Shown here: positions 7,959-63,903 of the stretch, one piece after another
Position numbering within the stretch: position 1 is the first letter of the stretch
How the letters are laid out: every line of letters begins with the position of its first letter
From: Robiginitomaculum sp.
GTDB lineage: Bacteria; Pseudomonadota; Alphaproteobacteria; Caulobacterales; Maricaulaceae
Length of the DNA stretch: 64,000 nucleotides
Assembly: GCA_015485155.1 (NCBI GenBank)
Contig: WFUF01000002.1
Coordinates: forward strand, 1 to 64,000
Direction of reading: 5' to 3'
Notes under the pieces: model-generated
What the model was told of the DNA's origin: nothing
Seen by the model: the letters and a program-made list of their open reading frames with translations, nothing else
Database searches by the model: none
Position numbers and translations under genes: made by a program

Positions 7959-8927
7959 ATGGACTTTTCTCTGCAAACATTGGTTGATCCGGAATTTCTG
8001 GTTACAGTTTTTGCTGCAATTGTCACTTTTGCAACGGTATTAACCCTGGTCGGGCCGTTATTTGGAGGGAACAAATTTGCAGGAAGATTAAAATCCGTGG
8101 CAACCCGGCGTGAGCAATTGCGTAAACGAAACCGGGAGGCATTATTCAAAAAAACCAATTTACGCGGAGAATCCAAAGGCTTTATGACCGACGTGGTCAG
8201 CAAGCTGAATTTAAGTACATTACTTGAAGACACGGCCCTGCAGTCAAGATTGTTGCAAGCAGGCCTGCGCGGGCAGGGCCCGATTATGGCTTTTTACTTC
8301 TTTCGGCTTGTTGCTCCTATCGGGTTATTTATTTTTGGTTTGGCTTATTTGTTTCTGTTCAATGATTTTGGCAAGCCACCGATGGTTCGTTTTGCCATAG
8401 CCTTTGGCATGCTGGTTGCCGGCTATTATGCTCCTGGCATTTATATTGATAACATTGCGGCCAAGCGCCGGGAGTCAATTATGAAGGCGTTTCCTGATGC
8501 CTTGGATTTATTGTTGATTTGTGTGGAATCTGGCATGTCAATTGAAGCTGCCTTTGGCAAGGTTGCTGCTGAAGTTGGTGTTAACTCAATTGAGCTTGCC
8601 GAGGAAATGTCACTGACAACTGCTGAGCTTTCTTATCTTCAAGAACGCAGGCAGGCTTATGAGAACTTGGCGAGCCGGACTAATCACCCGGGTGTAAAAG
8701 CGGTGGCTACATCGCTAATTCAGGCAGAAAAATACGGGACACCCTTGGGAGCTTCCTTGCGGGTCATGGCCAAGGAAAACCGTGAAATGCGTATGGCGCA
8801 GGCAGAGAAAAAAGCAGCTTCCCTGCCTGCAAAACTGACAGTGCCGATGATTATATTCTTCCTACCCGTCTTGTTTGTGGTCGTACTTGGCCCGGCAATC
8901 ATAAAATTCCAGCAATTGGGGAGCTAG
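7959..8927 (+). CDS. tadC: Type II secretion F family protein TadC
   Basis: The second inner-membrane platform protein of the Tad pilus, 322 residues, paralogous to TadB. It has a membrane helix near the N-terminus, two in the middle (FFRLVAPIGLFIFGLAYLF and the next run), the T2SSF domain (DALDLLLICVESGMSIEAAF, YGTPLGASLRVMA) and a C-terminal helix. It is 15 bp downstream of tadB and closes the cluster; a dispersed repeat starts 2 bp after its stop codon. Confidence 0.93.
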   Translation: MDFSLQTLVDPEFLVTVFAAIVTFATVLTLVGPLFGGNKFAGRLKSVATRREQLRKRNREALFKKTNLRGESKGFMTDVVSKLNLSTLLEDTALQSRLLQAGLRGQGPIMAFYFFRLVAPIGLFIFGLAYLFLFNDFGKPPMVRFAIAFGMLVAGYYAPGIYIDNIAAKRRESIMKAFPDALDLLLICVESGMSIEAAFGKVAAEVGVNSIELAEEMSLTTAELSYLQERRQAYENLASRTNHPGVKAVATSLIQAEKYGTPLGASLRVMAKENREMRMAQAEKKAASLPAKLTVPMIIFFLPVLFVVVLGPAIIKFQQLGS

Positions 8928-8928
8928 A

Positions 8929-9088
8929 AGCATTTTTAGCAAAAGTGGGAGTCTTTATCTGTCCTATCGCCTAGCGGCTACTTGACTAGCGCCTATCGGC
9001 TATTTTAAGCGCGGGTTTTGCGACTGGGTAAATGCGATAGATGAAATATTTAGATCAAATTTTAGTTCACTTTGAGCCTGAAAATGCT
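8929..9088. repeat. Dispersed intergenic repeat, full-length copy 2 with terminal inverted repeats
   Basis: A 160-bp element that begins AGCATTTTTAG and ends GAAAATGCT, so its ends are inverted repeats. Order inside: TTAGCAAAAGTGGGAG, a TCTTTATCTGTCC segment, two small hairpins (GCCTAGCGGC and GCCTATCGGC), GCGCGGGTTTTGCG, then an A/T-rich tail ending TTTGAGCC. The same order is found at 1-273 and, inverted, at 24068-24196, about 43926-44177 and 52887-53010. It starts 2 bp after the tadC stop. The first part of the flagellin 1 upstream region is therefore this element. Confidence 0.8.
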
Positions 9089-9157
9089 CCAGGGGTTTGA
9101 GTTTGAACCTTAATTACAGGACAAGCTGTGACTTTATCGAAATTATTACAGCGAAGA

Positions 9158-9167
9158 TTTTGCCGCG
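9158..9167. promoter_or_regulatory. Candidate upstream activator (FlbD-type) site for flagellin 1
   Basis: TTTTGCCGCG sits about 135-145 bp upstream of the predicted start of transcription of flagellin 1. Similar TTGCCG cores lie at the same distance before flagellins 2 and 3. In Caulobacter, FlbD binds ftr sites about 100 bp from sigma-54 flagellar promoters. The match to FlbD is an inference; only the shared motif and spacing are seen. Confidence 0.35.
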
Positions 9168-9273
9168 CCTGCATGTTTTGCAGGTAAAATAGTGCCGATT
9201 TGGTCTTTTGCTAAATACCCATCACAAAAAAGCATTATAAAACAAAAAGATAGATGTGCGCTCAAATTGTGAC

Positions 9274-9291
9274 TTTGGTGTGTGCGTTGCA
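9274..9291 (+). promoter_or_regulatory. Sigma-54 promoter of flagellin 1
   Basis: TTTGGTGTGTGCGTTGCA has GG at 9277-9278 and GC at 9289-9290, the exact GG-N10-GC spacing of -24/-12 promoters. Transcription would begin near 9302, leaving a leader of about 60 nt before ATG 9363. Confidence 0.7.
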
Positions 9292-9362
9292 AGGAGAGGT
9301 ATGGACAAGAATGTTCACTGATCAAAAAGATCAGTTCCCTGCCAGAATGGAAGGACCCAAAA

Positions 9363-10199
9363 ATGGCTATAAACAACTCAGTCAATACAAATTTCGGGGC
9401 AGCAGTTGCCCTGCAAAACTTGTCGAAGACGAATATGGAATTACGTGAAGTGCAAAATCGCATCAACACTGGCTACAAGGTTGCATCAGCAAGGGATAAT
9501 GGCGGAATTTTCGCTATTGCTCAAAAGCTGCGCGGCGAAGTAGCTGGCTATAATGCGGTGCAGCAATCACTATCCAGAGTACAATCCACAGTCGATGTCG
9601 CCTCGGCGGCTGGTACTGCGATTTCTGACCTATTGATTGAAATGAAGGAAAAGGCATTAGCTTCTTCTGACAGTTCACTCGATAGTGCATCACGCACAGC
9701 ATTGAACGAAGACTTTACTGCTTTGCGCGATCAGATTGCCAAGATTGTCTCCAATGCGTCATTCAATGGAACCAATCTGCTTGACGGCTCGACCAACAGT
9801 ATTTCGGCCTTGGCCAATTCTGACGGATCAAGCGTAATAACAGTGCTGGATGAAGATCTATCACTGGGCGGATCTATTGTGACCCTTGAGACCACCGAAG
9901 CAATTAATACCGTTACCAAGGCAACGGCAGCTGTGACCAAAATCACTAACAGCATTAACAATGTTGGTGCCGCTCTTGCCAGGTTAGGTACAAAGTCGAA
10001 AGCTCTGGAAATTCAGTCCACATTTGTCACCAAATTGAGCGATGAAACCAATTCAGGCATAGGTAGCCTGGTGGATGCAGATCTGGCGAAGGAAAGTGCG
10101 CGCTTGCAGGCGCTGCAAACCAAGCAGCAACTTGGCGTACAGGCATTGTCCATTGCCAATTCAGCACCGCAAATGGTGCTGTCGTTCTTTAGAGGGTAA
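9363..10199 (+). CDS. Flagellin (copy 1)
   Basis: A 278-residue short flagellin of the alphaproteobacterial type, with the conserved D0/D1 ends only. The N-terminus has NTNFGAAVALQNLSKTN and a VQNRINTGYKV stretch; the C-terminus has DADLAKESARLQALQTKQQLGVQALSIAN. The middle (about residues 130-200) is a small replacement for the variable D2/D3 region. An upstream in-frame start at 9282 would add 27 unlikely residues; ATG 9363 behind GGAAGGACC is preferred. Residues about 130-203 are encoded by DNA almost identical to flagellin 2. It has its own sigma-54 promoter and terminator. Confidence 0.96.
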   Translation: MAINNSVNTNFGAAVALQNLSKTNMELREVQNRINTGYKVASARDNGGIFAIAQKLRGEVAGYNAVQQSLSRVQSTVDVASAAGTAISDLLIEMKEKALASSDSSLDSASRTALNEDFTALRDQIAKIVSNASFNGTNLLDGSTNSISALANSDGSSVITVLDEDLSLGGSIVTLETTEAINTVTKATAAVTKITNSINNVGAALARLGTKSKALEIQSTFVTKLSDETNSGIGSLVDADLAKESARLQALQTKQQLGVQALSIANSAPQMVLSFFRG

Positions 10200-10205
10200 A
10201 CGGCG

Positions 10206-10250
10206 GACGGGAGGCTCTGGCTAGTATTTGCGCCTCCCGTCACCTTTTTG
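10206..10250 (+). terminator. Rho-independent terminator of flagellin 1
   Basis: GACGGGAGGC (10206-10215) pairs with GCCTCCCGTC (10232-10241), followed by ACCTTTTTG. A strong 10-bp stem with a short T run, 6 bp after the stop codon. Confidence 0.88.
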
Positions 10251-10312
10251 TCACGAGTTTGTTATGAGTTTGGTAACCATGAAGATGGGCAAAAACCCGC
10301 CGATCGGGCACA

Positions 10313-10354
10313 TATTGCCGCGTCGTTTGTTCAGCGTAGGCACAATTTGCCGTG
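10313..10354. promoter_or_regulatory. Candidate upstream activator (FlbD-type) sites for flagellin 2
   Basis: Two similar motifs, TATTGCCGCG (10313-10322) and ATTTGCCGTG (10345-10354), lie about 145 and 115 bp upstream of the predicted transcription start. The first shares TTGCCGCG with the site upstream of flagellin 1. Assignment to FlbD is inferred from position only. Confidence 0.35.
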
Positions 10355-10440
10355 CCATAATGGCACACTGATTTTTTTATCATATTTTTATGTAGCAGAA
10401 TCAAAAGATTATCATCTTGCTGGTTTCTGCGTGCCGTTTG

Positions 10441-10458
10441 CTGGCCCTTGGATTGCAA
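10441..10458 (+). promoter_or_regulatory. Sigma-54 promoter of flagellin 2
   Basis: CTGGCCCTTGGATTGCAA has GG at 10443-10444 and GC at 10455-10456 (GG-N10-GC). Start of transcription is expected near 10468, about 67 nt before the ATG. Confidence 0.75.
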
Positions 10459-10534
10459 AGGTTTGCCCGGGTCAAAGACCCCCGCCTGCGCATAATGCGC
10501 TCCTGCGGTAACCTTAAAAAGGAAGGGCCAAGAA

Positions 10535-11359
10535 ATGGCTTCAGTAAATACAAATATGGGTGCACTTGTTGCGCTTCAAAACCTAAACAACACCAATCGT
10601 GAAATTTCAACTGTTCAAAACCGCATCAACACCGGTTACAAAGTTGCCAATGCTAAAGACAATGGCGGCGCATTTGCTATTGCACAAAAGCTGCGTGGTG
10701 AAGTTGCCGGCTATAATGCTGTGCAAGGATCGCTTTCACGGGTTCAGTCTACAGTTGACGTAGCCTCTGCTGCTGGTACTGCGGTTTCTGATCTATTGAT
10801 CGAAATGAAGGAGAAAGCTCTTGCTGCCTCCGACAGCTCTTTGGACAGTGCATCACGCACAGCATTGAACGAAGACTTTGTTGCTTTGCGCGATCAGGTC
10901 GCCAAAGTGATCTCCAATGCGTCATTCAATGGAACCAATCTGCTTGACGGCTCGACCAATAGTATTTCGGCCTTGGCCAATTCTGACGGATCAAGCGTAA
11001 TAACAGTGCTGGATGAAAATCTATCACTGGGCGGATCTATTGTGACCCTTGAGACCACCGAAGCAATTAATACCGTTACCAAGGCAACGGCAGCTGTGAC
11101 CAAAATCACTAACAGCATTAACAATGTTGGTGCTTCACTGGCTCGTCTTGGTACCAAGTCCAAGGCTCTGGAAATCCAGTCCACATTCGTAACCAAACTG
11201 TCCGATGCCACAACAGCCGGTATTGGCAATCTGGTTGATGCGGATCTGGCCAAGGAAAGCGCAAGATTGCAGGCCTTGCAGGTCAAACAGCAATTGGGCG
11301 TACAGGCTCTTTCGATTGCCAATTCGGCACCGAGCCTGGTGCTTGGATTCTTCCGCTAA
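10535..11359 (+). CDS. Flagellin (copy 2)
   Basis: A 274-residue short flagellin, very close to copy 1 in protein sequence, with N-terminal NTNMGALVALQNLNNTN and C-terminal DADLAKESARLQALQVKQQLGVQALSIAN. GGAAGGGCC precedes the ATG. Nucleotides 10913-11133 differ from copy 1 at only two positions by eye, whereas both flanks differ at many synonymous sites. Expected to polymerise into the flagellar filament after export by the flagellar type III system. Confidence 0.96.
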   Translation: MASVNTNMGALVALQNLNNTNREISTVQNRINTGYKVANAKDNGGAFAIAQKLRGEVAGYNAVQGSLSRVQSTVDVASAAGTAVSDLLIEMKEKALAASDSSLDSASRTALNEDFVALRDQVAKVISNASFNGTNLLDGSTNSISALANSDGSSVITVLDENLSLGGSIVTLETTEAINTVTKATAAVTKITNSINNVGASLARLGTKSKALEIQSTFVTKLSDATTAGIGNLVDADLAKESARLQALQVKQQLGVQALSIANSAPSLVLGFFR

Positions 11360-11377
11360 ACAACGGAATAGAAAAAC

Positions 11378-11420
11378 AACCAGGCGGAACATTGGGGTCC
11401 TTCGTTTCGTCTGGTTGATT
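11378..11420 (+). terminator. Stem-loop after flagellin 2 (possible attenuating terminator before flaG)
   Basis: AACCAGGCG near 11378 can pair with CGTCTGGTT near 11408-11416 (one G-T pair), followed by GATTTTCC. The T run is short, so some transcripts may read through into flaG, for which no separate promoter was recognised. Confidence 0.5.
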
Positions 11421-11519
11421 TTCCAATCCTCTTTCTGATCCATTTAAGCCTGCGAGTTAGAAGATGGGCGGGTCAGATTCCATTTCGGGGAGGCGCTTTA
11501 AGTCAAGGGCGTTACGATT

Positions 11520-11879
11520 ATGAAAACCCAATTCGGAGCCAGTTCAAGTGCTGCAATGGTAACCGCGAATACTGGCAGGATAGTAAAATCATCTGGTCAA
11601 ACCGAAGGCGCGGTACAGCCTGTTGCCTCGGCGGGCGCTGTGGGTGAAAAACAGCAATCTTTAGAACCAGATCCAAGGCAGCAACAGCCAAATAGCGCAC
11701 AATTGCCAGACAACTCACGCCTGACAATTGAGCACGATAAGGAAACCGGCAAGTTTATTTACAAGACCGTTGACCGTGAAACCGGTGAAGTAATAAAGCA
11801 ATGGCCTCGAGAAGAGGTGTTAAAAGCCATATCAGCATATCAGAAGGCTTCCGGCTTGATTGTGGACAAAAAGGTCTGA
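11520..11879 (+). CDS. flaG: FlaG family flagellar protein
   Basis: A 119-residue protein. The first 70 residues are low-complexity (Gln, Ser, Ala, Pro) and the last 50 match the FlaG domain: KFIYKTVDRETGEVIKQWP followed by EEVLKAISAYQKASG. FlaG proteins influence filament length in other bacteria. It lies between two flagellins on the same strand, 160 bp after flagellin 2. ATG 11520 has AAGGG 8-9 bases upstream. Confidence 0.85.
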   Translation: MKTQFGASSSAAMVTANTGRIVKSSGQTEGAVQPVASAGAVGEKQQSLEPDPRQQQPNSAQLPDNSRLTIEHDKETGKFIYKTVDRETGEVIKQWPREEVLKAISAYQKASGLIVDKKV

Positions 11880-58350: not shown

Positions 58351-58671
58351 TCCATCTATGTGCTGTAATGCGTCATGAAGACATCAGATAATCAAGGCCG
58401 TATAATCCTGAAACTCCTGATAGTCACCATGGTTTTGGGGTTTTTTTAGACAAAAGGCAAGACCCAAGCCGCTGGATTGTGAACCAGCATCTGTTCTGGC
58501 GCTTGCTGGCTTGTGGCTGCGGGCAATCTTGCCGACGGATTTCAGCCTCATGCCATGCAAAACTGTTTCATGATTTCAGGGTCAGGCATATGTGTGGTCT
58601 GGTTTGAAAAAATCCAGAAAATATGTTAGGATTGCGAATATATGCGATCAGATTGGGGTAGGGTTTGGTCC
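58351..58671. other. Intergenic region, no supported feature
   Basis: No gene, RNA, promoter or repeat could be supported between infA (minus strand) and the CLCA-like gene (plus strand). A run of T at about 58440-58447 is the only local oddity. Confidence 0.5.
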
Positions 58672-61600
58672 ATGCTATACACATCAGGAAAGTTATGCAG
58701 TGCGAGATTATGCAGTGCAAGGCTGTACAGTTCGAGTAAGTTTATCTGCGCCCTTGTCAGTTTTGTTATGCTTGCAAGTGCGGCATATTCCGGGAATTCC
58801 CCGTATTCCAGAGTGCGGGAAGTAACACCATCCGGGGCAACCGTATCAGTGATGAGCGCTGGCAAACCCATGGTCAGCCAGGTCAGCAATCGGTCTGTCT
58901 TTGATATTACCATAAGCATTTATGAACGACAGGATGCGCCGAATTATCCTGCGGGCGATGATAATGCAGATGTTGATGCAGGCCCGTCGGATGATGAACA
59001 AAATGCCTATGAAGATATAATACGTTATTTTGCAGATGCGGTTTGTGAGGCAACGAATGGCGCGCATCACCTTGGCGAGGTACGAGTGTTCAAGCGGGGG
59101 CGGCATGCATCAAAAGCTGATATTCTGTGGAGCGCTGTTGATTGGCCATCTGCGAACACAAGCGGATTTGGGAAAAATGGCCGGCGGATCTATTTTGGTG
59201 ATGTATTTCCCATGAGCAGTCCGGTAAATGCCTTGGCACCGGAAGAACGCGAAGCAGCAGGATATACACTGGCTCACGAATGGGGTCATTATGTGTTGGG
59301 ATTGTTTGATGAATACGAAGGAACAAGTACTGATGTCGGGGCGCTTACTCCGCGTAAAGGTGATGAGCCTCCACCATATCCTTCGATAATGAATACGCAA
59401 TGGCCTGCGGCGAATGCCTCTGTTGCAAACCGGTTTCGCTATCTGAATTTTTCGCAGAAGGATAATTTTTCTGCAAAAACCGTACAGGGGCGTTTACATG
59501 GCTTAAGTGGCTGGGAGATACTGCTGTCGTCACCATATACAGACAAGAAATTTGGTAAAACAGCAACTGCCGGCAAGTTCAGCAGGGTTCAATACACCAA
59601 CCTTGCCAATGTGTCGCCTCCTCCGGCAAATGCTGGCAGTCCGCCAAATTACCGTATTGAATTGCCCGCCGGACAAAATGACTGCCGACAGGATCTCAAG
59701 ATTATCTGGCAGCAAAATGAGATGGAAATGGTCATTGCCGTTGACACATCTGTGAGCATGCGCTTTGGGTTATTGTCCGATGCCGTAGCCGCTGCCAAGG
59801 TTCTTGTGGATATTGTGGAAAAAGATAGCTCGGCTATCGGGCTAACTCATTTTCAGACCAATGTTTTTGTGGATCAAATTGTCAGACCGATCACAAAAGA
59901 CCCAGGTCCCGGAGTTTCTGTAAGGAATGATCTGAAATTTGCTCTTGATAATTTTAAGGCCGAAGGCTCCACAGCCATGTTCGATGGCGCGCAGCAGGCG
60001 CTGGATATGTTAAATGATTACAAGGCCGCCAATGATACAAATGCTACCCGCATGGTATTTTTGTTTTCTGATGGTGCTGATACCAATTCTAAAACATCGA
60101 CCGCAGATTCTATTCTGGCCAATTATCAAAGCTCTTTGGTTTCTCTAAGTGCATTTGCATATGGCGATGAGGCTCCGGAGGCGCTTTTGCGGCGATTGGC
60201 GCAGGAAACTTTTGGGGTGTACCGGGTCGCCCCTGATTCTCTTGTAGAAATTCAACGAGCCTTTGTGCGTGCTCTTGGAAAAGCTACTTCCTATCAGGTA
60301 ATTAAATCAAAAAAAGAGTATTCACTTGCCGGAACTCTGGCAAACATGTCAATGTATGTTGACCGGACTGTAAGCAAATTGCAAATGCTGGTGTCCTTTG
60401 ATCGCGCGGATGCCAGTGATATATCCTTTGCGGTTAATGGCCCCTCTGGTTCTGTGCCCACAGATTTTAATTGTACTTCCGGGGCGGGGCAGACCATTTG
60501 CCATGGGTATTTGAATGCTTCGGATACGGCGGCGGCTGGGGTTGGCAATTGGAATTTAACTGTCAACAATCAGACCGGGACTGATTTTCCCATGGAAATG
60601 GCGGTTTTATCCGTGCCGAAGTCTGGTGAGATATATGATGTAACCGTCGGAACCCTGGGCGAAAACGAACTTGCCTATCCTGGCCCGATTCCCGTAACGG
60701 CTGCCATTACCAAGGGCGGCAGGGCCATTAGTGGCGTAGATGTTGAACTACTTCACATCACCCCGACCGGGTTTGAGATATCCACTGGTTCAGTATCAAT
60801 GAATGATCAGGGAATTGACGGAGATGCCACGGCTATGGATGGCATTTATACCGTGCTGGTGGATTATGATGGGGGGCAGTTTTCGCCAACTATTGGCGCT
60901 CATACATTTGAGGTATCGGTATCAAATGCCCAGAATAAAGCCTTTTTTACCGATGTGGGTAAAAGCCCAAGCCATGATCTGCCCTTCCTTGGAGTAAAGC
61001 ACAAACATAGCGCTAATGGTAAAATGCACACCCATACTACTGCTGGCACTACTGCTGGTGCTATTGGTGAAAATGGAGATGTCTTTGAAGCCTCCCGAAC
61101 TCTGGTGGGAGAAAACTTTGAACGCACCGGATCTGTACAGATTTTCCTAACCGATAATAATGAGGACAATCACAGCAATACAACAACAGGGGCAACCCTG
61201 TTACCGGACGATAATTCCGACATTAAGGGGCGGATTGATTTTGCAGGTGATGTTGATGTCTTTCATATTGCCAACCCGGACACATCCCGGGATCTGAGTA
61301 TTCGTGTTTTTGATATGGCACTGGGTATGGAGCCTGTACTTGTCGTCACAAAAGCCAGCGACGGCACTGAATTAGTCAATGGCGATATCTCAACCTTGCA
61401 AAGCTCCAACGGATATTTGGTTGCAAATATTGCCAAAGAAGACTTGGCAGGGGGTGTTTTTGTGGCAGTCAGTCATGAAGATGCCAATGCTGCAAAGGGT
61501 AATTTTTCCATTAGTGCCGGTTCAGCAATAATATCAGACACACCATCCTTGCCACCTGCTCTGGTTGCGGCAATTTTGCCTTCCAGCCGCTCGGTTCAGA

Positions 61601-62322
61601 CTAACACCACAACCACGTTTTTCATGACCATATTGAACGGTTCGGAAAATCCGGCATTTGATGTTGGTGTTGCATTAAAAGGGATATTCCCAATTACAGA
61701 TTTTACCTATCAGGTTACAGACCCTGTTACCAATGCAGTGCTGGGCGAGATTAATGCGCCATCACTGATCGAGGGCGGTCTTGGGCAAACCTATGTGGTC
61801 GGGTTTCGTCCGTTTAATGTCATTTCGCCCACACAGCTGGAATTTGATGCCCCGAGTTTCAATGGCGCAGGGATAACCACTATTGCCGGGGTGAACACAC
61901 TACAGTTCCGTGCATCATCTTCACCGGTTATTGATATGGTATCTTTGGCGGCAACACTGAATAATGATGGGTTTGTAGATATTCCTGGCAATACCGGAAC
62001 CGGGGTTTTTGCTGTTGCTACCACTAATCTGGGAATTGCCGGAACTGTTACTGCTCGCGTCAATACCGGTGCAAATGCAATACCTGTTACTGTCAGCCTG
62101 TGCCAAACAGATGCTTTGGGCGCGTGCATGGCACAACCTGCAGATAATCTGGTACTGAATGTGGGGGTTGATGAGACTCCAACCTTTGGGATTTTTGTTA
62201 CGGCACAGGGCGAGATTGCCAATGATCCGGCTACCAATCGTGTATTTGTCGAATTTGTCGATGATGCAGATGTGGTGGTGGGCAGCACCAGTGTTGCGGT
62301 AAAAACAGTCGCTCCCTCCTGA
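58672..62322 (+). CDS. CLCA-like secreted metalloprotease/VWA protein
   Basis: A protein of about 1216 residues. After a signal-type hydrophobic run (KFICALVSFVMLASAAYSG) comes a zinc-hydrolase domain with HEWGH (residues 202-206) followed by VLGLFDEY, the HExxHxxxGxxDE pattern of animal CLCA proteins. A von Willebrand A domain follows with an intact MIDAS (DTSVS at 358-362; GSTAMFDGA; FSDGAD). Then come beta-sandwich regions, a His-rich stretch (KHKHSANGKMHTHTT), a PPC-like domain (DIKGRIDFAGDVDVFHI) and a C-terminal extracellular region. Start ATG 58672 or 58642. A 15-bp tandem repeat codes CSARLCSARL near the start. Confidence 0.85.
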   Translation: MLYTSGKLCSARLCSARLYSSSKFICALVSFVMLASAAYSGNSPYSRVREVTPSGATVSVMSAGKPMVSQVSNRSVFDITISIYERQDAPNYPAGDDNADVDAGPSDDEQNAYEDIIRYFADAVCEATNGAHHLGEVRVFKRGRHASKADILWSAVDWPSANTSGFGKNGRRIYFGDVFPMSSPVNALAPEEREAAGYTLAHEWGHYVLGLFDEYEGTSTDVGALTPRKGDEPPPYPSIMNTQWPAANASVANRFRYLNFSQKDNFSAKTVQGRLHGLSGWEILLSSPYTDKKFGKTATAGKFSRVQYTNLANVSPPPANAGSPPNYRIELPAGQNDCRQDLKIIWQQNEMEMVIAVDTSVSMRFGLLSDAVAAAKVLVDIVEKDSSAIGLTHFQTNVFVDQIVRPITKDPGPGVSVRNDLKFALDNFKAEGSTAMFDGAQQALDMLNDYKAANDTNATRMVFLFSDGADTNSKTSTADSILANYQSSLVSLSAFAYGDEAPEALLRRLAQETFGVYRVAPDSLVEIQRAFVRALGKATSYQVIKSKKEYSLAGTLANMSMYVDRTVSKLQMLVSFDRADASDISFAVNGPSGSVPTDFNCTSGAGQTICHGYLNASDTAAAGVGNWNLTVNNQTGTDFPMEMAVLSVPKSGEIYDVTVGTLGENELAYPGPIPVTAAITKGGRAISGVDVELLHITPTGFEISTGSVSMNDQGIDGDATAMDGIYTVLVDYDGGQFSPTIGAHTFEVSVSNAQNKAFFTDVGKSPSHDLPFLGVKHKHSANGKMHTHTTAGTTAGAIGENGDVFEASRTLVGENFERTGSVQIFLTDNNEDNHSNTTTGATLLPDDNSDIKGRIDFAGDVDVFHIANPDTSRDLSIRVFDMALGMEPVLVVTKASDGTELVNGDISTLQSSNGYLVANIAKEDLAGGVFVAVSHEDANAAKGNFSISAGSAIISDTPSLPPALVAAILPSSRSVQTNTTTTFFMTILNGSENPAFDVGVALKGIFPITDFTYQVTDPVTNAVLGEINAPSLIEGGLGQTYVVGFRPFNVISPTQLEFDAPSFNGAGITTIAGVNTLQFRASSSPVIDMVSLAATLNNDGFVDIPGNTGTGVFAVATTNLGIAGTVTARVNTGANAIPVTVSLCQTDALGACMAQPADNLVLNVGVDETPTFGIFVTAQGEIANDPATNRVFVEFVDDADVVVGSTSVAVKTVAPS

Positions 62323-62550: not shown

Positions 62551-63903
62551 TTATTTATTTATGTTTTCAGCCAAAATCTGATTGCCCCGGCTCGCAGCAC
62601 CGGAAACCCAGCGCCCGATCGGGGTCTGTGCCCCCCCAGAGGAGAACTTCTTGGCCGTGATCCACCAGATATACCAGTCCTTGCTGTCGGTTTCTTGTAA
62701 TGGTACCGCAAAGGTAAATTCCTGCCACTTATAAGTCCAACTGGTTTCAGTGCCCGAAAGCGTAACATCACCACTTAGCTTAAACTCCACATCATCAAGT
62801 TTGATCTCGCTGCTTTTTCTTTCTCTGGTGATGATTTTATCGCTGGTAAGGACAATCCTGCCAAAGGGCCCAAATTCATATTTTGGCGCTTGCAAAATGG
62901 CCTTGGCTATTTTTAAGCGATTTTTGTCCCTGGATCTGGCTTTGGGCAGGCGTGATTTGTCAAGTGCCTGTTTGCGTTTAGCGGCAAAGTCGCCCTTTGT
63001 CCGTTGCCACAGGGAGATCAGGCTTTGCGCCCTATCCGTTGGTCGTTCCAAGGCTGTTTCCAAAAATAACGCCGATTGGATAATGGCCAGGTCACGATCC
63101 ATTGCCTCTTGCATTTTTGCTTCGGCGTCCTTGCCAATAAACCGGTATTCGTCATCAGCAAGGGGTTGTAAGGCCAGCCGTAAGTTTAAGTTTTCTTCAA
63201 CGCTTTTATTTTGGCGCTCCAACTGTGCGGCCATTGCCCGATAGCCTGCCGCCAGATCCTTGAACATCTGGCTGTTCCATGAAGTTAAACGTCGTACATC
63301 GCCGCTATCATAAGGGGCACCGCCTTGCACGGTACCGCGATTGTCCGGTAAATAAGCCAGAGGTGCAATAAATGCCAATTGTTTTTGGTTATGTTCGGCC
63401 ACGGTACGTGCTGAAGATGCGGCGGCCACCCATGTTTTGGCCTGTTGTTCATCAAAAGGAATAAGCAGCGGCTTTGGTACCGGGTATTTTCGTGCATTGG
63501 CTTCGATTTGGGCCAGAGCCTGTTGCACATCGCCCAGTTTTGCCTGTTGCTGCCTGGCGCGCTTTAGTTCATCAGTTAAGGCTTTGGCCAGATCATTAAA
63601 CTGTTTTCGCGCTTCGATAACGTCAGGGTCATTAACCTGCGGATAGCGCATCAAGGCGGTTTTGAACTGGGTAAATCGTTTCTGGAATTTGGCAATATTG
63701 GCCGGGCTTTGAAATTCAGAAGGGCCGCTGGTTTTAATGTCGGCGCGCACTTCTGATATATTTTTGGCCAGTTTTTTTACCTGCACCCTTTGCCCTGAAA
63801 CCAGAGGAGCCTGCCATGCTGCTATGACAATTTGCGCAGGTGCCACGTGTGACACCGAGCTAAATGCCAGTACCAGACCAAACAAGATAAAAAATAATCG
63901 CAT
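62551..63903 (-). CDS. Secreted coiled-coil protein of unknown function
   Basis: A 450-residue protein with a signal peptide (FFILFGLVLAFSSVSHVAPA). The centre (about residues 60-300) is rich in Ala, Gln, Lys and Glu and should form helices or coiled coils (DLAKALTDELKRARQQQAKL). The C-terminal third is beta-type (IKLDDVEFKLSGDVTLSGT, WTYKWQEFTFAVPL, WYIWWITAKK). No family is recognised. It converges on the CLCA-like gene, and 62323-62550 between them shows no supported gene. Confidence 0.75.
   Translation of the reverse strand: MRLFFILFGLVLAFSSVSHVAPAQIVIAAWQAPLVSGQRVQVKKLAKNISEVRADIKTSGPSEFQSPANIAKFQKRFTQFKTALMRYPQVNDPDVIEARKQFNDLAKALTDELKRARQQQAKLGDVQQALAQIEANARKYPVPKPLLIPFDEQQAKTWVAAASSARTVAEHNQKQLAFIAPLAYLPDNRGTVQGGAPYDSGDVRRLTSWNSQMFKDLAAGYRAMAAQLERQNKSVEENLNLRLALQPLADDEYRFIGKDAEAKMQEAMDRDLAIIQSALFLETALERPTDRAQSLISLWQRTKGDFAAKRKQALDKSRLPKARSRDKNRLKIAKAILQAPKYEFGPFGRIVLTSDKIITRERKSSEIKLDDVEFKLSGDVTLSGTETSWTYKWQEFTFAVPLQETDSKDWYIWWITAKKFSSGGAQTPIGRWVSGAASRGNQILAENINK

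Follow-up and report, generated by a model that had tools for sequence, protein, structure and literature searches.

This work concerns a gene at positions 58672-62322 (+) of a 64,000-nucleotide stretch of Robiginitomaculum sp. (contig WFUF01000002.1 of assembly GCA_015485155.1), hereafter called the window, which encodes a 1216-residue protein that resembles the CLCA family and is predicted to be secreted. The most informative part of this protein is its C-terminal module of about 250 residues (962-1212; 61555-62307, +), which is tied to a type II secretion system (T2SS) and which was missing from the domain layout given in the initial annotation. We tentatively propose a T2SS variant with a modular address, in which the homologous ~250-residue module, spread by fusion over many unrelated enzymes, would be selected by the machine, or would attach the cargo to a glycan made by genes of the same operon, and in which module and machine would pass jointly from genus to genus. 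The window's CLCA-like peptidase would possibly be one passenger of that system. As for the protein itself, its sequence favours a Sec-exported CLCA-like zinc peptidase with a VWA adhesion domain, to which a transferable module, a probable mark of cargo of one particular T2SS, has been added.

A module shared by unrelated proteins

When the whole protein was searched against 61 genomes, its last ~250 residues were matched many times per genome. The alignment of 41 distinct copies of this module contained 11 invariant columns, including two cysteines at a distance of eight residues. No Pfam or NCBIfam family matched more than one of the 41 copies at an E-value of 0.1, and no PDB chain was matched at an E-value of 1. 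The idea that the module is a tandem duplication of one domain was rejected, its halves aligning with an hhalign probability of 0.1%. Within the same GTDB family, the module was present in 27 of 137 genomes, from three of the 19 genera; the matches per genome, with up to 19 candidates scored, ranged from 1 to at least 19 (median 10). In the phylum-wide search, in which up to six candidates per genome were scored and no other member of the family was among the genomes listed, only one of 398 genomes was matched, namely that of the window (G000), with 6 of its 10 modules recovered. This indicates only that the module is not common outside the family.

The window protein is one of ten places at which the module occurs in its own genome. 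Two of the other nine carriers matched no Pfam family. The remaining seven were a subtilase (S8), an M12B peptidase, an M6-like protein (below the Pfam cut-off), a di-haem peroxidase, an FG-GAP protein, a DUF5666 protein and a hydrolase resembling class-C beta-lactamases. A larger set of 79 distinct module proteins was collected from selected stretches in 12 of the 27 genomes, and each contained exactly one module. Their partner domains were scanned at an E-value of 1e-5 after three CLCA orthologues had been left out. The partners of C-terminal modules (n = 46) included reprolysin (18), S8 (8), M23 (2), GH114 (2) and M64 (1), and those of modules in other positions (n = 30) included CCP_MauG (6), FG-GAP (4) and reprolysin (2). 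A hydrophobic N-terminus was seen in 74 of 77 module proteins, compared with 37 of 77 other long frames; two frames cut at their 5' end were left out of this set. According to hydropathy, a hydrophobic 15-residue stretch lay within the last 45 residues of three of the 77.

Additional observations were made on the arrangement of the carriers. Long proteins with an internal module (at least 1362 residues, some cut by the end of the stretch) were found in L030, L075, L088, L099 and L044; the module mostly lay 114-219 residues before the C-terminus, and once 1566. Three consecutive module genes lie in the window's own genome (L027:4720-12469, contig C3) and encode an M12B peptidase, a protein without a Pfam family and an S8 peptidase. 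Adjoining S8 and M12B genes are also seen in several other members of the genus.

The secretion operon associated with the module

The search for GspD in the 137 genomes revealed that, in many of those with the module, one class of this secretin was separated from module genes by about 14 kb. The operon had the order gspD-gspO-[variable]-methyltransferase/TPR-RgpF-gspE-F-G-H-I-J-K-L-M-C in 15 of 15 loci examined from such genomes, some of them cut by contig or stretch ends. In the window's own genome it is located outside the window, on contig C15. Ten genes of this operon were compared with Pfam, in which T2SSE, T2SSK, T2SSM_b, PilN (corresponding to GspL) and the A24 peptidase scored above the cut-off, and T2SSC reached 26.6 bits against a cut-off of 27; GspD was above the TIGR02517 cut-off. 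GspF, G, H, I and J were named by eye, from gene order and from similarity to G017, with no HMM involved. The Pfam results agree with the gene names, and with GspC to GspM, GspD and a prepilin peptidase in one operon, we classify it as a T2SS.

The variable part of the operon is an ABC-2 transporter pair in the own genome, where this pair, the RgpF-like gene and the methyltransferase gene, whose product matches TPR weakly, all lie between gspO and gspE (L105:11854-13468 and 8296-11879). A sulfotransferase-like gene was recognized there by eye in G017 and G015. These embedded genes possibly indicate that a glycan is produced and exported along with the secretion machine. Additionally, gspD is adjoined in 13 of the 15 loci, divergently in 10, by a gene whose large product resembles outer-membrane receptors by eye. 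It is found at L105:18226-19899 in G000, where the product starts MISLRQLAGG, and at L104:612-3785 in G017, where it starts MINLRQLAGG.

The co-occurrence of module and operon was close. The RgpF marker was detected in 26 of the 137 genomes, always with at least 542 bits and always in genomes with the module, and none of the 110 module-free genomes matched it at an E-value of 1e-20. Similarly, the GspL marker reached at least 318 bits in 25 genomes, all with the module (G006 and G721 were without it), and three module-free genomes gave matches below 50 bits. Among the 84 genomes of the order, a strong marker was confined to G000, G017 and G023, and two others scored below 90 bits. Neither module nor marker was present in G010, which belongs to the window's genus and has a completeness of 81%. 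Five T2SS loci from module-free genomes, chosen as GspD matches of about 359-390 bits with other T2SS of those genomes left out, served as controls: gene order was different in all five, and no relative of RgpF or of the methyltransferase/TPR protein was found within the 20-kb stretch. A Fisher test of this co-occurrence (p = 4e-27) ignores the relatedness of the genomes and was not used as evidence.

Module genes are also neighbours of the machine. In all 23 genomes whose sequence continued beyond gspC, a module gene lay at most 1.1 kb from the end of gspC; the distance did not exceed 100 bp in 21 of them, and in G779 and G003 it amounted to about 1.07 kb. It must be noted that these distances separate stop-to-stop frames and that small genes in the gaps were not sought. 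Adjacency was not evaluable in G777 (contig ends), G006 (contig without gspC), G721 (no operon found) and the own genome. An estimated chance of 0.4-0.7% for such adjacency rests on assumed, uncounted gene numbers. The slot beside gspC was occupied by an S8 peptidase gene in 16 genomes, by a co-directional gene of 753-785 codons in five (G719, G720, G722, G723 and G023), by an M12B gene in one and by a cut-off partial gene in one. In G012 and G015, the single module match of the genome was the gene adjoining gspC.

Genus g5, the third genus with the module, is represented by 15 genomes, of which G777 and G779 had the module, both with the operon; the other 13 had neither module nor marker. In the GspD and GspE trees these two genomes branched with G724 of genus g7 (support 100/100 and 100/99, respectively). 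G724 has two S8 proteins, and the S8 protein of G779 shared 67% identity with one of them and 43% with the other, which is the gspC-adjacent one; the value was 45% for that of G718 and lower for the rest. This suggests that machine and cargo were transferred jointly into g5, with misassigned genera as the alternative.

One enzyme family allowed carriers and non-carriers to be compared. The di-haem peroxidase (CCP_MauG) of the own genome had matches at an E-value of 1e-40 in 40 of the 137 genomes. In the best 30 of 41 matches, the module was present in all 15 proteins from module-bearing genomes (the own one included) and in none of the 15 from module-free genomes. A lipobox expression was matched within the first 110 residues in 13 of the 15 proteins without module, although in L160 and L164 the match was not at the visible Cys-Gly run; the remaining two have a Cys-Gly-Gly after a hydrophobic stretch (by eye), that is, a lipoprotein-type start. 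No lipobox was found in the six module-bearing proteins checked out of 15. In this family, members with the module have module-free relatives with a lipoprotein-type start.

The CLCA-like protein of the window

The open reading frame proposed by the initial annotation was confirmed, with an alternative in-frame ATG upstream at 58642 that would give 1226 residues. Hydropathy and inspection by eye point to a probable signal peptide in residues 1-40 (58672-58791, +). The zinc-site motif HExxHxxxGxxDE was found as HEWGHYVLGLFDE at residues 202-214 (59275-59313, +), with E203 as had been claimed, inside a CLCA_N-like stretch (163-216). None of 20,000 shuffles of the protein contained this motif, and it was kept in all four orthologue sequences that cover the site (L022, L023, L042 and L024a). 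The VWA domain was likewise corroborated, since residues 353-518 (59728-60225, +) scored above the Pfam cut-offs of three VWA models. At the sequence level it contains the MIDAS-type strings D358TSVS (DxSxS), GST (432-434) and SDG (466-468). DxSxS and SDGxD were kept in the same four orthologues and in the partial L007, and GST, looked for in the four, was kept in all of these. In the AlphaFold model of the N-terminal part, built on a five-row alignment, the mean pLDDT was 34.1 and the values remained below 50 across residues 40-541, which comprise protease and VWA, too low to bear on a zincin fold or on MIDAS geometry.

The CLCA layout attributed to the protein was upheld in part. The order of the zinc motif and the VWA, a weak match to PF08434 and an alignment to TIGR00868 agree with it. 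The PF08434 match sits exactly around HExxH and reached 17.6 bits (E-value 0.0028) in the protein scan and 19.7 bits (E-value 4.6e-4) in the genome search, both below the cut-off of 25.6. Among the six orthologue sequences scanned, it was also below the cut-off in L022 (16.4 bits), L023 (14.1) and L024a (19.9), with no match in L042, L007 or L024b, the last two being partial sequences. The model for calcium-activated chloride channel protein 1, TIGR00868, aligned from the VWA to residue 737 (E-value 2.3e-13) with 48.9 bits, far below its own cut-off of 900.85. In published work, membership of the CLCA family depends on the CLCA_N domain (Lenart et al., 2013, PMC3650047), and a cysteine-rich region is described behind the protease core (PMC3650047, PMC6851300); the window protein has no cysteine between residues 126 and 337. 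Given the PF08434 score below the cut-off and the missing cysteine-rich region, the term CLCA-like is used here. PF08434 was matched only in the own genome among 289 genomes of the class and 398 of the phylum. Viral contigs gave no match, and PHROGs yielded one VWA-region family of unknown function together with weak matches.

Several further segments lie between the VWA and the module. A beta domain C-terminal to the VWA (residues 542-651; 60295-60624, +) is the sole well-modelled part of the N-terminal model (pLDDT mostly about 71-88); its Foldseek matches of ~110 columns were to the beta jelly-roll of subtilases, to GOLD and to collagen-binding domains. Foldseek gives no query range, and matches were placed on segments by their length. 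A stretch like choice-of-anchor X (708-733; 60793-60870, +) narrowly misses the NCBIfam cut-off in the window protein, whose relatives in L023 and L042 exceed it. The His-rich region of the initial annotation does exist at residues 777-788 (61000-61035, +) but proved not to be conserved, being absent in L022 and L023. Its PPC-like region corresponds to a beta domain at residues ~840-954 (61189-61533, +), modelled mostly at pLDDT 71-87, which is moderate confidence, and accompanied by PDB matches to the collagen-binding domains of ColG and ColH, of which this domain is likely the source. The C-terminal model had a mean pLDDT of 53.7; many of its top Foldseek matches were discarded for their rmsd of more than 14 A, and short matches at about 4-5 A were to the ColG/ColH domains and to segments of integrin hybrid domains.

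The search of 61 genomes identified orthologues in G001 (partial), G003, G004, G009 and G014 (split). Those in L022, L023 and L024, from Robiginitomaculum metagenome-assembled genomes, are probably the same genes as in G009, G003 and G014, respectively, as their contigs have equal lengths. The N-terminal part showed 54-80% identity, and all orthologues reaching the C-terminus had the module (62-80% identity). In L024:113-3732 (NORP327), the gene is broken into two frames of 527 and 700 residues, which may reflect an assembly error or a decayed gene. The search for conserved neighbours suggested by the initial annotation gave a negative outcome: the surroundings of the gene differ among the window, L022 and the pair L023/L042, the latter two having common neighbours. 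A local operon was dropped as an explanation because the neighbourhood varies, and the plasmid collection contained no relative. The adjoining gene in the window (62551-63903, -) encodes a 450-residue protein with a signal-like start, without any significant Pfam or NCBIfam family, which was absent from the open reading frames listed beside the orthologue in L022.

Proposed mechanism, alternatives and known systems

In the mechanism that we propose, the CLCA-like protein would be exported via Sec and would then fold in the periplasm. Its module would be engaged by the T2SS, either to select the protein or to hold it at the surface, and the cargo would pass via GspD. Outside, it would be displayed or released, and the putatively active peptidase and the VWA domain would act on a surface or environmental protein. 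The first and last of these steps are suggested by motifs, and the middle ones by genome linkage. That the window protein and the other module proteins are cargo of the RgpF-associated T2SS appears quite probable. We also lean towards the view that the module itself would be required for export or surface retention, and we offer only tentatively that the module, rather than the enzyme attached to it, would be the primary recognition signal.

Several results weigh against this interpretation. The module has no confident structure (pLDDT below 50 in its first half and about 47-75 in the second). It was C-terminal in 49 of the 79 proteins, near the N-terminus in 16 and internal in 14, a variability equally compatible with a binding module and with an export tag; the same positions (30 of 79 not C-terminal) led to the rejection of a sorting signal confined to the C-terminus. 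The number of modules varies among genomes, so that the cargo set would not be constant. A lipobox-like string was present in 3 of the 77 module proteins. Genome G721 had 19 module matches and no operon was found in it; its completeness is 69%, and it alone among the 137 gave no GspD match at all. Several g7 genomes had a further GspD above the cut-off (528.7 bits in G023, for instance), and another T2SS could carry module proteins there. In the own genome about 320 bp separate the S8-module gene from the end of contig C3, and about 410 bp separate gspC from that of contig C15; the two genes would be adjacent, facing each other as in G017, only if these ends were joined. In addition, the genomes are related, and the counts may come down to one origin with one or two transfers.

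Some of these results would be expected if the module were a binding domain acting after secretion, either on the cell's own glycan made by the RgpF, methyltransferase and ABC genes or on algal matrix, with the T2SS reading some other feature of the cargo. Glycan-type genes inside the T2SS operon itself (RgpF-like, methyltransferase, ABC-2 transporter) make such an anchor role plausible. The occurrence of the module in any position and always in a single copy, the diversity of the enzymes joined to it and its presence in CCP_MauG, whose relatives start like lipoproteins, which is consistent with retention, are also in its favour. Nevertheless, a mere binding module would need no such close co-distribution with one T2SS, and we consider this explanation less likely, though a serious one.

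Relatedness raises a different objection, namely that module and T2SS are simply traits of the same clades and that the peptidase beside gspC is an old cargo gene that has the module by chance. The distribution gives it some ground, 25 of the 27 module-bearing genomes belonging to two genera (17 and 8), so that few independent events are represented. However, different module genes fill the gspC slot across lineages, and the machine appears to have entered genus g5 together with a cargo gene, so such hitch-hiking seems improbable. The initial annotation had pointed to a plain bacterial CLCA with self-cleavage and surface binding, for which the C-terminus would be an indifferent add-on. The zinc motif, the VWA and the TIGR00868 alignment speak for this reading, but neither the window protein nor the three orthologues matched among the six scanned reached the PF08434 cut-off, the cysteine-rich region is missing, and the module is conserved in the orthologues no less than the N-terminal part. 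We hold it to be a poor account of the protein.

With respect to known systems, the presence of CLCA proteins in bacteria is not new, having been published since 2013: PMC3650047 describes members from bacteria and archaea, several of which share the layout of metazoan ones. According to work on animal CLCA1 (PMC6851300) and on bacterial members (PMC3650047), CLCA proteins (PF08434) and the window protein have in common a signal-type start, HExxHxxxGxxDE, a VWA with MIDAS strings and a beta-rich region after it. In contrast, the window protein has the extra PPC-like domain and the shared C-terminal module.

The proposed T2SS variant, with its modular address, resembles in part the GlyGly-CTERM system. 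In the excerpted text of PMC13393428, VesB of Vibrio is a GlyGly-CTERM/rhombosortase cargo of the T2SS, GlyGly-CTERM being a short C-terminal tail of glycine, transmembrane and basic parts. One part common to several secreted peptidases, linked to a T2SS and co-distributed with a dedicated partner, is alike in both cases. Unlike that tail, the module has about 250 residues, may be in any position and is co-distributed with the T2SS itself; according to hydropathy, 74 of the 77 module proteins have no such tail, and the window protein, which ends in ...STSVAVKTVAPS, does not qualify as a member. The same excerpt (PMC13393428) reports that the Ig fold of VesB is a T2SS secretion signal, needed together with GlyGly-CTERM for the passage of a reporter across the outer membrane. 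It is also a domain appended to a peptidase, but there it is the signal of one protein, whereas here a homologous module is found on many unrelated proteins. Position and machine differ in another comparison, that with the type IX secretion system. In that system one type of C-terminal domain is carried by many cargo proteins of a single machine, with glycan-linked display; the domains there are C-terminal and the machine is unrelated, whereas here the machine is a T2SS and the position of the module is not fixed. Among the papers listed by literature searches on T2SS recognition, on the T2SS in this group and on common domains of T2SS cargo, none described the module or the operon in its title or the opening of its abstract.

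On its own, the CLCA-like protein would merely add one more ordinary example to a family known from bacteria. The wider interest lies in the many proteins (median of ten per genome, range from 1 to at least 19) with one recognizable part that tracks one T2SS operon, which makes the question testable by moving that part. If the proposal is true, the cargo of the T2SS would be predictable from sequence in these bacteria.

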